From positions 620,001 through 684,000 of the forward strand of contig NZ_JAKZFS010000002.1 of NCBI RefSeq assembly GCF_022808915.1: a stretch of DNA of 64,000 nucleotides, read 5' to 3'. The notes below the pieces were generated by a model, which was not told where the DNA came from, ran no database searches, and was given only the letters and a program-made list of their open reading frames with translations. Made by a program: the position numbers and the translations under genes. Position 1 is the first letter of the stretch, and each line of letters starts with the position of its first letter. Below are positions 6,161-10,028 of the stretch, piece after piece. The stretch is from Fundidesulfovibrio terrae. GTDB lineage: Bacteria; Desulfobacterota; Desulfovibrionia; Desulfovibrionales; Desulfovibrionaceae.

Positions 6161-6323
6161 CTTCCATTTTTCGTGGCAAGGCTCTGCCCGTCTTTCCGGA
6201 TGGCTGTGCCGCGTCCTTCGTCCGCTTTTTGGCGCGCGAGCGATGCCGTTACACGCCCCCCGATCCCTCGACTCCCACGTCCGTGCTGGTTTCCGCTTTT
6301 CGGCCATGCAAAGGAGATCCGAA

Positions 6324-8300
6324 GTGGATCAGCATCCTTCGGTCGGCAAGCGCGTCAAGGACGCGGTCATCGGCAAAAGCCTCAATCTCGGGGACCAGTC
6401 CATCTTCCATCAGCTCTCGCTCATGGCCTTCTTCGCCTGGGTGGGACTCGGGGCGGACGGCCTATCCTCCTCCTGCTACGGTCCGGAAGAAGCCTTCCTG
6501 GCGCTGGGCGAGCACACCTTCCTGGCGGTGTTCGTGGCGTTGGGCACGGCGGTGACCATCCTCGTCATCTCGGCCAGCTACTCCCAGATCATCGAGCTCT
6601 TCCCCTCGGGCGGCGGCGGCTACCTGGTGGCCTCCAACCTGCTCTCCCCCAAGGTGGGCATGGTTTCGGGCTGCGCCCTGCTCATCGACTACGTGCTGAC
6701 CATCACCATCTCCATCGCCTCGGGTGCGGACGCCATCTTCAGCTCCCTGCCCGCATCCCTGGCGCCCTACAAGCTGGAAGCGGCCATCGCCGGCGTACTC
6801 ATCCTCACCATGCTCAACCTGCGGGGGGTGAAGGAGTCGGTCACGGTGCTGGTGCCCATCTTCATGACTTTCGTGATCACCCACATCGTGGCCCTGGGCT
6901 ACGGCCTGGGAACCCACGCCGCCCAAGGGGCGGAACTCGCGGCGCGCATCAGCCAGGACGCCTCCGCGGCGCGGGACCAGTTGGGCTACCTGGGCATGTT
7001 CCTGCTGATCCTTCGAGCCTACACCATGGGCGCGGGCACATACACCGGCATCGAGGCCGTGAGCAACGGCCTGCCCATCCTGCGCGAGCCCAAGGTGCGG
7101 ACCGGCAAGCGCACCATGGTGTACATGGCCGTGTCCCTTGCCGTGACCGTCACCGGGCTCATGTTGGCCTACCTGCTCTACGGGGTGGGGCACCAGGAGG
7201 GCAAAACCCTGAACGCCGTGCTCTTCGAGGCCGTGACCGGGCAGTGGCCCCAGCCCTTCGGCCAGTGGTTCGTGTGGGTGACTCTGGCCTCCGAGGCGCT
7301 GCTCCTGTTCGTGGCGGCCCAGGCGGGCTTCCTGGACGGGCCGCGAGTGCTGGCCAACATGGCCCTGGACCGCTGGTTCCCCACCCGCTTCGCCATGCTC
7401 TCGGACCGCCTGGTCACCCAGAACGGCATCCTGCTCATGGGTGGGGCGGCCCTGCTGCTCATGCTCGTGTCCAAGGGCTCCGTGGACTTTCTGATCGTCC
7501 TGTATTCGATCAACGTCTTCATCACCTTCGTGCTCTCGCAAACGGGCATGGTGCGCCACTGGTGGCAGGTCCGCCACAAGGCCGGCGAGAAGTGGGTCAA
7601 GGGGCTGGCGCTGAACGGCCTGGGGCTCGCGCTCACTGCCTTCATCCTGGCCTCGGTGGTGGTGGTGAAGTTCTTCGAGGGCGGTTGGCTCACCGTGGTG
7701 ATCACCGCCGCCCTGGCCTTCTTCGCCCTCAAGATCAAGCGCCATTACGACGACACCTGGAAGCAGATCCAGTCTCTGGACACCCTGGTGGATTCCGTGA
7801 CCCTGCCGGCCTGCGACCTGGAAGCCCCCTCCGAGCCGGACACCCAGGCCAAGACGGCCGTCATCCTGGTCAACGGCTACAACGGCCTGGGGCTGCACAC
7901 GCTCTTCAACGTGCTCAGGCTCCATGGCGAGGAGTTCAAGAACTACGTATTCGTTCAGGTGGGCGTGGTGGACGCCCACGTCATGCGCGACCACGCCGAG
8001 CTGGGCCGCCTCAAGCAGGGCATACGCGCCAGCATGGACAAGTACCTGGCTCTCATGCGCTCCAAGTGCTACCATGCGGAGGCCCACTGGGCCGTCGGCA
8101 CGGAGGTGGTCCACGAGATTCTCGAACTGGCGCCAGTGATCAAGGAGCGCTTCCCGCGATGCGTGTTCTTCGGCGGGCAGTTGGTGTTCGAAAAGGACAC
8201 CCTGCTCACCAGGCTCCTGCACAACTACGTGGTCTTCAGCCTGCAGCGCCAGATCTACAAAGTGGGCATCCCCTTCATGATCATGCCCATCGCCCTGTAA
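6324..8300 (+). CDS. APC-family (KUP-like) cation/amino-acid permease
   Basis: I prefer GTG 6324 because AAGGAG (6311-6316) sits seven bases before it; an ATG at 6306 is in frame but would overlap that ribosome site. The 658-residue protein has about 12 membrane segments between residues 28 and 465, including FFAWVGLGADGLSSSCYGPEEAF, a signature of this subfamily of the APC superfamily, and SGGGGYLVASNLLSPKVG. A soluble C-terminal domain of roughly 180 residues begins around TWKQIQSL and may be regulatory. The upstream c-di-AMP riboswitch makes potassium uptake the most likely role; amino acid transport cannot be excluded. A stable hairpin at 8312-8344 follows the stop codon. Confidence 0.85.
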   Translation: MDQHPSVGKRVKDAVIGKSLNLGDQSIFHQLSLMAFFAWVGLGADGLSSSCYGPEEAFLALGEHTFLAVFVALGTAVTILVISASYSQIIELFPSGGGGYLVASNLLSPKVGMVSGCALLIDYVLTITISIASGADAIFSSLPASLAPYKLEAAIAGVLILTMLNLRGVKESVTVLVPIFMTFVITHIVALGYGLGTHAAQGAELAARISQDASAARDQLGYLGMFLLILRAYTMGAGTYTGIEAVSNGLPILREPKVRTGKRTMVYMAVSLAVTVTGLMLAYLLYGVGHQEGKTLNAVLFEAVTGQWPQPFGQWFVWVTLASEALLLFVAAQAGFLDGPRVLANMALDRWFPTRFAMLSDRLVTQNGILLMGGAALLLMLVSKGSVDFLIVLYSINVFITFVLSQTGMVRHWWQVRHKAGEKWVKGLALNGLGLALTAFILASVVVVKFFEGGWLTVVITAALAFFALKIKRHYDDTWKQIQSLDTLVDSVTLPACDLEAPSEPDTQAKTAVILVNGYNGLGLHTLFNVLRLHGEEFKNYVFVQVGVVDAHVMRDHAELGRLKQGIRASMDKYLALMRSKCYHAEAHWAVGTEVVHEILELAPVIKERFPRCVFFGGQLVFEKDTLLTRLLHNYVVFSLQRQIYKVGIPFMIMPIAL

Positions 8301-8311
8301 ACAAACGGCTT

Positions 8312-8344
8312 GTCCGGGCCGGGATTTTTCATCCCGGCCTGGAC
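8312..8344 (+). terminator. hairpin after the APC/KUP-like permease
   Basis: GTCCGGGCCGGGAT and ATCCCGGCCTGGAC pair over about 14 positions (one G-T wobble) around a TTTTC loop. It starts 11 bases after the stop. Its right arm overlaps the -35 element proposed for the first tandem RNA. Confidence 0.6.
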
Positions 8345-8367
8345 AGCGGGCATCGGGTGTTTATCTT
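8340..8367 (+). promoter_or_regulatory. candidate promoter of tandem RNA 1
   Basis: TGGACA (8340-8345), 16 bases, TATCTT (8362-8367). The second RNA has the same layout (TGGACG, 16 bases, TATTTA), each preceded by CC. Both place the start near the shared 5' word AGAGGCAATG. Confidence 0.5.
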
Positions 8368-8376
8368 GTCTTGCAG

Positions 8377-8549
8377 AGAGGCAATGGTGTTCAACTCCAT
8401 CGGAGGGATGAGGGGAATAAACCTCGAATACCATAAGCAGCGCATTGAGGCGCCTGACAAGATTTGCCGTAGCGCACCGTAAGAGCCACACCTGAAGGAA
8501 GGGGAGGCTGCCTGACAATCAGGCTCACGCGCCAGGCAAATCTTTTTTT
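8377..8549 (+). ncRNA. structured small RNA, copy 1 of a tandem pair
   Basis: About 173 nt from AGAGGCAATG to a T7 run. The 3' half is closed by a perfect 9-bp stem AGATTTGCC (8460-8468)/GGCAAATCT (8535-8543) followed by T7, a strong intrinsic terminator. Inside are a GCGC/GCGC helix, an AGCC/GGCT hairpin whose loop exposes GAAGGA, and GCCTGA-CAA-TCAGGC (8510-8524). The 5' half can fold with ATGGT/ACCAT enclosing CTCC-ATC-GGAG and GAGG/CCTC hairpins. Bases 8478-8512 are identical to copy 2. No open frame is shared by the copies and no gene follows on this strand, so a riboswitch is unlikely. Five GGA words suggest a possible CsrA target. I cannot assign it to a known family. Confidence 0.72.
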
Positions 8550-8601
8550 GTGCCCCGCGTCCGTGATGATTCGAACCCGGAAGAAAGACGATCCAGTCCC
8601 C

Positions 8602-8629
8602 TGGACGTGGAAGAAAGCGTGGTTATTTA
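8602..8629 (+). promoter_or_regulatory. candidate promoter of tandem RNA 2
   Basis: TGGACG (8602-8607), 16 bases, TATTTA (8624-8629), matching the elements and spacing in front of copy 1. The surrounding TTATTTAATTAAG is strikingly AT-rich for this genome. Confidence 0.5.
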
Positions 8630-8636
8630 ATTAAGT

Positions 8637-8811
8637 AGAGGCAATGAGGTGCAACAATCAACGGGGGGACGAGGGAAATAAGCCGCTTTCATCATAATCG
8701 CGCGTTGAGGCGCCTAATTACAAAGATTTGCGTAAGCGCATCGTAAGAGCCACACCTGAAGGAAGGGGAGGCTGCCGGAGTTCCGGCTATCGCGCCAGCA
8801 AATCTTTTTTT
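8637..8811 (+). ncRNA. structured small RNA, copy 2 of a tandem pair
   Basis: About 175 nt, starting with the same AGAGGCAATG and ending in the same stem plus T7 (AGATTTGC 8724-8731 / GCAAATCT 8798-8805). It shares the identical 35-nt core (8742-8776) and the GCGC helix. Its third hairpin is GCCGGA-GT-TCCGGC (8774-8787) where copy 1 has GCCTGA/TCAGGC: a T-A to G-C compensatory change. In the 5' half ATGA/TCAT replaces ATGG/CCAT, another compensatory change. Start-to-start distance between copies is 260 bases. Conservation of structure across sequence change supports a functional RNA; the role is unknown. Confidence 0.72.
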
Positions 8812-8885: not shown

Positions 8886-10028
8886 TTACCCTCTGCGGCA
8901 GGCCTCGACCCATTCGATCTCACGCACGATGGATTCCACCACCGTGGGTGTTTGCAGCTCCTTTGGCAGCACCGAGAAGGTGTACGTCTCCACTTCCAGC
9001 GGGACATGAGCAGGAACCAGGGGTAGGAAGTCCCTCAGGAAAGCCTGGGTCGTCGAGCACTCGGACAGCTCTTCCAGGAACACCGGCAGGTGGAAGTGCA
9101 CCCGCCAGCTGGGTGCGCCGCCAAAATCCGGCCGGGGCGACGGGTCGGCCGGAACTCCCTTCACCCATCCCAACGCCTGCCCCAGGTCGTCGAACCGCTC
9201 AAGCTTCCCGCTCCCATCCCTGAACACGCATTGGTGCAAATACACCGGTTCGTCGAATCGCGACAGGCAGGAGAGGGCCGGGCAGGGCAGGTTGAGCGCC
9301 GAGGACACCTGCACGTGGCCGATCTCGATGGCGTTGTCCGCCAGAAGCGTAAGCGACCAGGCCGGGTCCTCGAACTGCAGGGCCTGGTGGCAGCAGTCGT
9401 AGCAGGCCGCCAGGTGCGCGCGCAGATTTTCCGGCAACGCCAGGCGTTCGAACAGCGAAACCAGCTGGGGCGTGGTCTCCACCAGGCAGCCTGGCTCGGG
9501 CTCCACGGACAGGCGGATCAGCTTGCCGGTGCGCTGGGCGATCCGGTCGAGCCCCTCCAGGGCCTTGCCGATGGTGGCCAGGGCCATGCCTTCCTGCGCG
9601 AGGTCGAAATCCGCCGTGAATCCCACCGGCACCGAGGATATGGACCCGTCCATGCCCTCCGGCAGCCACACCGCCAGGAGTTCCGCCAGCCGCAGGGTGT
9701 ATTCCAGGCGGGCCGGATCGCGCCAGTCCGGCAGGTACACCCCGGACTTCACCGGCGTGCCGTGGAAGGTCCCGAAGGGAAATCCGTTCACCGTGGCCAC
9801 GTACAGGCCGTGCTCCCCCATCCAGTCCTTGAAGCGCAACGCCTCCCCGCCGTCCACCTGGCGGCTGGCCAGCCCCGACACGCGAAGCCCCACCGGGAAG
9901 GGATCGTCCGGGCACACGGCGGCCTTCACGGCCAGGGTGTGCGCCTCAAGGTTGCGCCGGGTCTCGTCCCAGGATTCGCCCGGGTGGATGTTGGTGCAGT
10001 AGGTGACGGGGGCCGGCCGGGCGCTCAC
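8886..10028 (-). CDS. EboE-like sugar-phosphate isomerase/epimerase family TIM-barrel protein
   Basis: The 380-residue protein begins VTYCTNIHPGESW near residue 8, a hallmark of the metabolite traffic protein EboE family within the xylose-isomerase-like TIM barrels. Later blocks include SVEPEPGCLVE (a metal/sugar-site Glu), CYDCCHQALQFED and GHVQVSSALN, with His and Asp at metal-binding positions typical of the fold, and LEVETYTFSVLP near the end. The start is GTG at 10028, overlapping the TGA of the EboD-like gene by four bases (GTGA), so the pair is translationally coupled. In other bacteria these genes belong to the ebo cluster, linked to export of aromatic metabolites; eboA, B, C and F are not visible here. 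Confidence 0.78.
   Translation of the reverse strand: MSARPAPVTYCTNIHPGESWDETRRNLEAHTLAVKAAVCPDDPFPVGLRVSGLASRQVDGGEALRFKDWMGEHGLYVATVNGFPFGTFHGTPVKSGVYLPDWRDPARLEYTLRLAELLAVWLPEGMDGSISSVPVGFTADFDLAQEGMALATIGKALEGLDRIAQRTGKLIRLSVEPEPGCLVETTPQLVSLFERLALPENLRAHLAACYDCCHQALQFEDPAWSLTLLADNAIEIGHVQVSSALNLPCPALSCLSRFDEPVYLHQCVFRDGSGKLERFDDLGQALGWVKGVPADPSPRPDFGGAPSWRVHFHLPVFLEELSECSTTQAFLRDFLPLVPAHVPLEVETYTFSVLPKELQTPTVVESIVREIEWVEACRRG

Follow-up and report, generated by a model that had tools for sequence, protein, structure and literature searches.

The window examined here, 64,000 nucleotides of Fundidesulfovibrio terrae, holds two similar units in tandem, which raises the question whether these are RNA genes and, if so, how their RNAs would act. 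A preliminary description, made from the letters alone, had taken them for free small RNAs with matched promoters and terminators. Base-by-base reading agrees with its outline exactly: the units are 173 and 175 nt long, end in T7 runs at 8549 and 8811, and share a 35-nt identity (8478-8512 and 8742-8776). Both begin with the start word AGAGGCAATG (at 8377 and 8637, 260 bases apart), and direct reading confirmed the common -35/-10 layout with 16-base spacers and the P1 stem followed by T7 (Table 1). By blastn the two are 79% identical over 174-176 nt, and no third copy was found in the same genome at E 0.01. An amino-acid-permease-like gene lies 5' of the pair on the same strand (6243-8300). 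The next gene on the 3' side, EboE (8886-10028), is convergent; as had been stated, no same-strand gene follows the pair.

Table 1. Positions of the two units and their parts in the window
Feature	Position	Strand	Description
Unit 1 promoter	8340-8367	+	TGGACA-N16-TATCTT, hexamers 8340-8345 and 8362-8367; direct reading and promoter scan
Unit 1 small RNA (u1)	8377-8549	+	173 nt; predicted ends
u1 family module	8401-8453	+	CGGAGGG 8401-8407, GAATAA 8415-8420, CCATA 8431-8435
u1 module hairpin	8440-8453	+	GCGC-ATTGAG-GCGC; alignment A7, column conservation, covariation
u1 branched 3' domain	8459-8549	+	closed by P1 AAGATTTGCC/GGCAAATCTT, then T7; probable terminator
Unit 2 promoter, probable	8602-8629	+	TGGACG-N16-TATTTA, hexamers 8602-8607 and 8624-8629
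Unit 2 small RNA (u2)	8637-8811	+	175 nt; predicted ends
u2 family module	8662-8713	+	first motif degenerate: CGGGGGG 8662-8668; GAAATAA 8675-8681, TCATA 8692-8696
u2 module hairpin	8700-8713	+	GCGC-GTTGAG-GCGC; alignment A7
u2 branched 3' domain	8722-8811	+	closed by P1 AAAGATTTGC/GCAAATCTTT, with T7; probable terminator

A promoter scan found one site, the unit 1 promoter, against 0.4 expected. The unit 2 promoter is weaker and was missed by this consensus scan; it aligns with the promoters of relatives, most of which, inspected by eye, have TGGACA, TTTACA or TTGACA together with TGnTTAT upstream. Both T7 ends were missed by a terminator scan that takes loops of 3-8 only, as P1 closes a branched domain; its three other sites, against 1.9 expected, are near chance. 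In terms of sequence signals, each unit has its own promoter and terminator and an intergenic position, as a stand-alone trans-acting sRNA would, and u1 and u2 are probably transcribed separately. The fold of u1 has a z-score of -4.39 (0 of 200 shuffles as good), while that of u2 has one of -1.47 (15 of 200), so the whole of u2 folds little better than shuffles.

The two units are more than a chance likeness, since sequences outside the eight genus copies from which we built a covariance model (R1) match it at E values down to 1e-12, and since helices covary against shuffled and slid controls. The change from GCCTGA/TCAGGC to GCCGGA/TCCGGC, read earlier as preserving a pairing, is real and corresponds to helix 6 in the covariation test on the genus alignment. 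A further change read in the same way, ATGG/CCAT to ATGA/TCAT, is present, but the evidence for pairing is weak, and we rejected it as a family helix because CCAUA recurs with or without the upstream partner. On the genus alignment the R1 structure is paired in 91.1% of cases against a comparison value of 84.9%, and P1 and P4 show changes on both strands; this paired count is lowered by three rows (G001, G004 and u1) misaligned at the 3' strand of P1 and by G005, which is short there.

The units very probably are non-coding RNA genes of a family absent from Rfam 15. Over the window only the c-di-AMP riboswitch RF00379 (6026-6161, 97.9 bits), which precedes the permease-like gene in an ordinary arrangement, reached the gathering threshold. 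Three matches to the u1/u2 region down to E 10 were all far below gathering, 16 related loci gave nothing but two tRNAs in one locus, and 10 further related loci gave no match, in line with the earlier remark that the units could not be matched to a known RNA family. A full-text literature search returned no title or abstract on these RNAs among the matches listed; a 2017 survey, reportedly of 224 candidate RNAs, lay outside the comparison.

With the units themselves, blastn found matches in five of six further genomes from the genus (the one without a match is 66% complete) and in none of 52 other genomes searched outside it. R1 matched 30 of 247 genomes of the family. Two further models were built from the stretch 5' of the 35-nt core, R2 from 29 sequences and R3 from 46, which match these models by construction. 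Across the order, R2 matched 110 of 348 genomes in 21 of 59 genera and R3 118 of 348 in 23 of 59, every match falling within one family; 20 of the R3 genera are matched at E < 1e-4, and the other three (g44, g47 and g52) rest on one match each at E 1e-4 to 1e-3. A search of the class took in the same 348 genomes. In a sample of the phylum 8 of 395 genomes matched, two of them outside the family and both weakly. Scanning named genomes for the exact pattern returned 31 stretches, every one from Desulfovibrionaceae genera (Solidesulfovibrio, Pseudodesulfovibrio, Humidesulfovibrio, Desulfocurvus, Fundidesulfovibrio and Desulfovibrio) or from unclassified proteobacterial metagenome genomes, and from these labels we name the family Desulfovibrionaceae. 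As far as searched, then, the RNA is confined to Desulfovibrionaceae by its sequence matches. The covariance search by which the preliminary description had proposed to check itself thus returned homologues, in 118 of 348 genomes, with a covarying hairpin.

The 35-nt core is met only within the genus, and the family signature is the stretch 5' of it, AACGGAGGG-n8-AAUAR-...-CAUA-[GCGN(AnnGAG)NCGC]. In the general layout, promoter-like TTTACA, TTGACA or TGGACA with TGnTTAT is followed by a 5' hairpin in most genera, which is not evident in Fundidesulfovibrio. Then come AAC-n3-5-AACGGAGGG, eight bases, AAUAR, a variable stretch, CAUA and the hairpin GCGN-AnnGAG-NCGC, and finally a branched domain closed by P1, often with a T end. 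Within GGAGG, column counts over 46 sequences show the second and last G in all 46 and the A in 39; the AAUA columns are kept in 44 to 45, and the final letters of the AnnGAG hexaloop in 46 (G), 43 (A) and 45 (G). The distance from GGAGGG to AAUAR is kept although the spacer letters vary (alignment A7). Of the cells of the module hairpin 93.3% are paired, compared with 77.3% after shuffling and at most 57.1% when slid; the pair closing the hexaloop is CG in 21, AU in 13, GC in 9, UA in 1 and UG in 1, so that 45 of 45 are paired. Unpaired letters are thus kept while paired positions keep their pairing, as for a site of contact with protein or RNA. An energy model leaves AAUAR unpaired 87% of the time and GGAGG only 33%, and readings that need a freely exposed GGAGG are weakened accordingly. 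The first motif has no GGA in u2 (CGGGGGG), and the second copy of G003 (G003b) also departs from the GGAGGG consensus. A helix spanning the GAAAUAA stretch, formed by N6 and the next bases, was rejected, as it occurs in single members (AGCG/CGCT in the first copy, G003a), not in most of those inspected by eye. The likeness of ACGGAGGGUGC, presumably a 16S rRNA sequence, to helix 18 of 16S extends over 8 bases and is probably chance.

Paired copies recur. Same-strand matches less than 400 bp apart were found with R2 in at least 19 genomes of at least 7 genera across the order; one of these genomes, G197, has an array that looks like one transcript, so that paired units are found in at least 6 genera. 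In the genus of the window, pairs occur in the genome studied here and in G003; in G001, G002, G004 and G005 a further match, diverged in sequence, lies at another place in the genome (E 1.6e-5 to 4.8e-4). In the G003 pair no T run follows the first copy and no promoter is evident before the second, and the two may form one transcript. In the 3' domain u1 is nearest to G005 (88.9%), and u2 is equally near to G003a and G003b (88.9 and 88.8%), so these identities do not date the duplication. A second type of dispersed paralogue, AACGGAGGGTA...CGTTAATCC-like...CATAACGGGCGAnTGAGCGCCC-like, is common to two genera (L145, L146, L147, L076 and L077).

In a Solidesulfovibrio-type genus (g25) the module itself is multiplied: by a strict pattern it occurs 2, 2, 3, 3, 3, 3, 4 and 4 times at eight of eight loci (L148, L150-L155 and L162), in steps of 192-223 nt. 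An htpX-like ORF, recognized by a residue pattern, is next on the same strand at all eight; profile scans of two of these ORFs gave matches to HtpX models (E 1e-108 and 1e-109) that fall short of the curated cut-off by a few bits. At six of the eight loci a terminator of one fixed form precedes the ORF. The RNA, built of repeats, would be about 0.7-1.1 kb, its ends and length being estimates, and four of the loci (L148 and L151-L153) gave no Rfam match. Genus g53 has one module before an htpX-like gene at two of two loci (by eye). At L149 the strict pattern finds one module and the model two, and htpX is absent there. The htpX-upstream loci were chosen because they matched, and these fractions are not frequencies.

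The genes around the RNAs bear on whether they act in trans or in cis. We took as the next ORF the largest of at least 120 aa beginning 20-900 nt beyond the module, a crude rule that can pick false ORFs; it is convergent at 32 of 49 loci and on the same strand at 17. The same-strand ORFs are of differing kinds, with no constant downstream gene such as a riboswitch or cis leader would have, and neighbours differ between genera, the htpX-upstream relatives being the exception. Because neighbours change between loci, the family RNAs probably act in trans, and the earlier view of u1 and u2 as free small RNAs and not riboswitches gains support, the next gene being convergent here. A cis-acting leader or attenuator would fit the htpX-like genes that lie directly downstream of related RNAs in two genera, with a terminator-like stem between, as well as the 17 same-strand loci (at four g8 loci the ORF begins 58-179 nt past the module), but with a convergent gene in the window and at the majority of loci, and neighbours that change between genera, it is an unlikely account of the family. 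Genes that by eye resemble c-di-GMP enzymes (GGDEF/EAL, HD-GYP) adjoin the RNA in several genera (L017-L033, L081, L082, L087 and L088), and the neighbour at L081 (g8) matches a c-di-GMP phosphodiesterase model below the cut-off; this adjacency is suggestive only.

As for protein partners, the Hfq model PF17209, positive in 5 of 14 control genomes, matched none of 57 genomes of the order with or without the RNA, and bacteria with these RNAs appear to lack Hfq. CsrA is encoded in 53 of the 57, that is in all 31 with the RNA (in the genome studied here at G000:C3:448027-448179) and in 22 of 26 without it. RRM proteins have 1-5 matches in each of 56 of the 57 genomes, so their presence is uninformative and RRM was rejected as a unique partner. 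Genomes that lack the RNA also encode CsrA and RRM proteins, so presence does not single out either. In the genus that includes G088, two genomes carry, immediately 3' of the RNA pair and in the same orientation, a gene for an RRM RNA-binding protein (L079; G033:C5:14201-14410).

The preliminary description had offered a CsrA sponge or a Shine-Dalgarno mimic as hypotheses, pointing to an exposed GAAGGA loop, which we find to belong to the genus-specific 3' domain. A sponge like CsrB or RsmY would draw on AACGGA, which fits A-N-GGA, the sequence we take to be the CsrA core, and on the presence of CsrA in every RNA-bearing genome. However, GGA is not enriched: u1 has 5 against 4.5 in shuffles, u2 has 5 against 3.9, and 61 rows of family members average 4.93 against 4.47 (four duplicates, one weak second match and two weak matches outside the family were left out, and the RNA at L035/L093 is counted twice). 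The same script passed its control, E. coli CsrB, with 22 GGA against 14.7 (1 of 200 shuffles as high) and 14 AGGA against 4.8 (0 of 200). ANGGA is uninformative, being 7 against 4.6 in CsrB itself (27 of 200). Among 11 multi-module or htpX-type RNAs, AGGA is high in three (at most 7 of 200 shuffles) and GGA in two (at most 12 of 200). Since GGA is also lost from the first motif of u2 and G003b, a multi-site sponge is not supported, and CsrA sponging of any CsrB-like kind is doubtful. The mimic, an RNA that would occupy 30S subunits, has one point in its favour: GGAGGG does resemble a strong ribosome-binding sequence, but the site is often predicted to be paired, the conserved base before GGAGG is C and not A, and no start codon stands at a fixed place downstream, which makes this reading very improbable. 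Hardly credible is an mRNA for a small protein. The frame from the codon after GGAGGG is open for 21-28 codons in all eight Fundidesulfovibrio copies, and that codon is GTG in five, ATG in one, ACG in one and TTT in one; the start is thus lost in u2 (ACG) and G003b (TTT), there is hardly any spacing to the putative ribosome site, and the frame of G002 is shifted relative to the other genus copies. Of 13 Solidesulfovibrio-type copies, 10 have an 11-codon frame that starts at an upstream ATG and stops at the UAA of AAAUAA, but it is broken in L019, L023 and L030 and was not seen by eye in other genera. Its carriers (L017, L020-L022, L025, L027-L029, L031 and L033) have an MxxTxTEGxAK-like frame that spans the conserved motif. 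With no conserved start codon and frame, and with peptides that follow the conserved RNA letters, we rejected the small-ORF reading (two genera by script, the others by eye), and the 11-codon frame is taken as a by-product of those letters.

Two readings remain to be weighed for RNAs acting in trans. We tentatively prefer two adjacent, separately transcribed non-coding sRNA genes whose RNAs would work independently of Hfq and serve an RNA-binding protein as decoy or platform; this protein might be CsrA or one of several small RRM proteins. The protein would read the module, that is AACGGAGGG, AAUAR at its fixed spacing and the AnnGAG hexaloop, and copy number would set the titrating dose, through paired genes or through 2-4 modules per presumed transcript in Solidesulfovibrio-type genomes. 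We lean towards this protein decoy because the module is multiplied and both its loop letters and its spacing are fixed; the RRM gene that closely follows the pair in two genomes, both of one genus, also speaks for it. Against it are the lack of GGA enrichment, the second copies in our genome and in G003 that depart from the GGAGGG consensus, the 17 same-strand loci (the htpX-upstream members could be cis leaders), the modest fold of u2, and a GGAGG site predicted to be mostly paired. Nearly as likely as the protein decoy is a base-pairing regulator, a possible reading in which conserved unpaired segments would be seeds for C/U-rich mRNA sites, again without Hfq. Trans-encoded sRNAs commonly show motifs conserved outside helices, ends that resemble promoters and terminators, and scattered loci, as seen here. 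However, the spacer between GGAGGG and AAUAR varies freely, the first motif is not the same in u1 and u2, a difference incompatible with a long fixed seed, and the hexaloop is short as a sole seed. Going further than the protein decoy, and more speculative, is the idea that the module may be the recognition element of an undescribed Hfq-independent RNA-protein regulatory system of Desulfovibrionaceae, in which tandem pairs of single-module sRNAs and the multi-module RNAs of 0.7-1.1 kb upstream of htpX would jointly titrate an RRM-type or other RNA-binding protein by module number.

What sequence comparison establishes is the family, its conserved module with a covarying hairpin, the 3' domain closed by P1 and the recurrent same-strand pairs. 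With Hfq matched in none of 57 genomes of the order, the mode of sRNA action there is a question on which these RNAs bear. There is now a defined RNA family in about 20 genera (E < 1e-4); its conserved module is short, nature supplies versions with one, two or several modules, and covariance models are available. Detecting transcripts, capturing partners and deleting both copies thereby become simple experiments. A link to a named stress gene, the membrane protease gene htpX, comes from the multi-module RNA upstream of it.

Among known RNAs, the Chlorobi-RRM motif (RF01697), listed in PMC2864571, should to judge from this name lie close to an RRM gene. Compared by that name, it resembles the present family in the RRM gene near the RNA in one genus; it differs in that there is no Rfam match here and that the RRM gene adjoins the RNA in only two genomes. 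Trans-encoded sRNAs of the Hfq class share the promoter- and terminator-like ends and the intergenic, dispersed loci, whereas here no Hfq match was found in 57 genomes and the conserved module is larger and has fixed spacing. CsrB/CsrC and RsmX/Y/Z are stand-alone, structured and often multi-copy sponge sRNAs of CsrA-bearing bacteria. The present RNAs are likewise structured, often multi-copy and probably stand-alone, in CsrA-bearing hosts and with a conserved GGA, but they show no GGA excess, have one conserved site per module and match no Rfam family. GOLLD and ROOL are large, ornate bacterial RNAs with repeats. The Solidesulfovibrio-type RNA upstream of htpX is similar to them in its estimated size and in being made of repeats; in contrast to them it has no Rfam match, and its repeat contains the small module.
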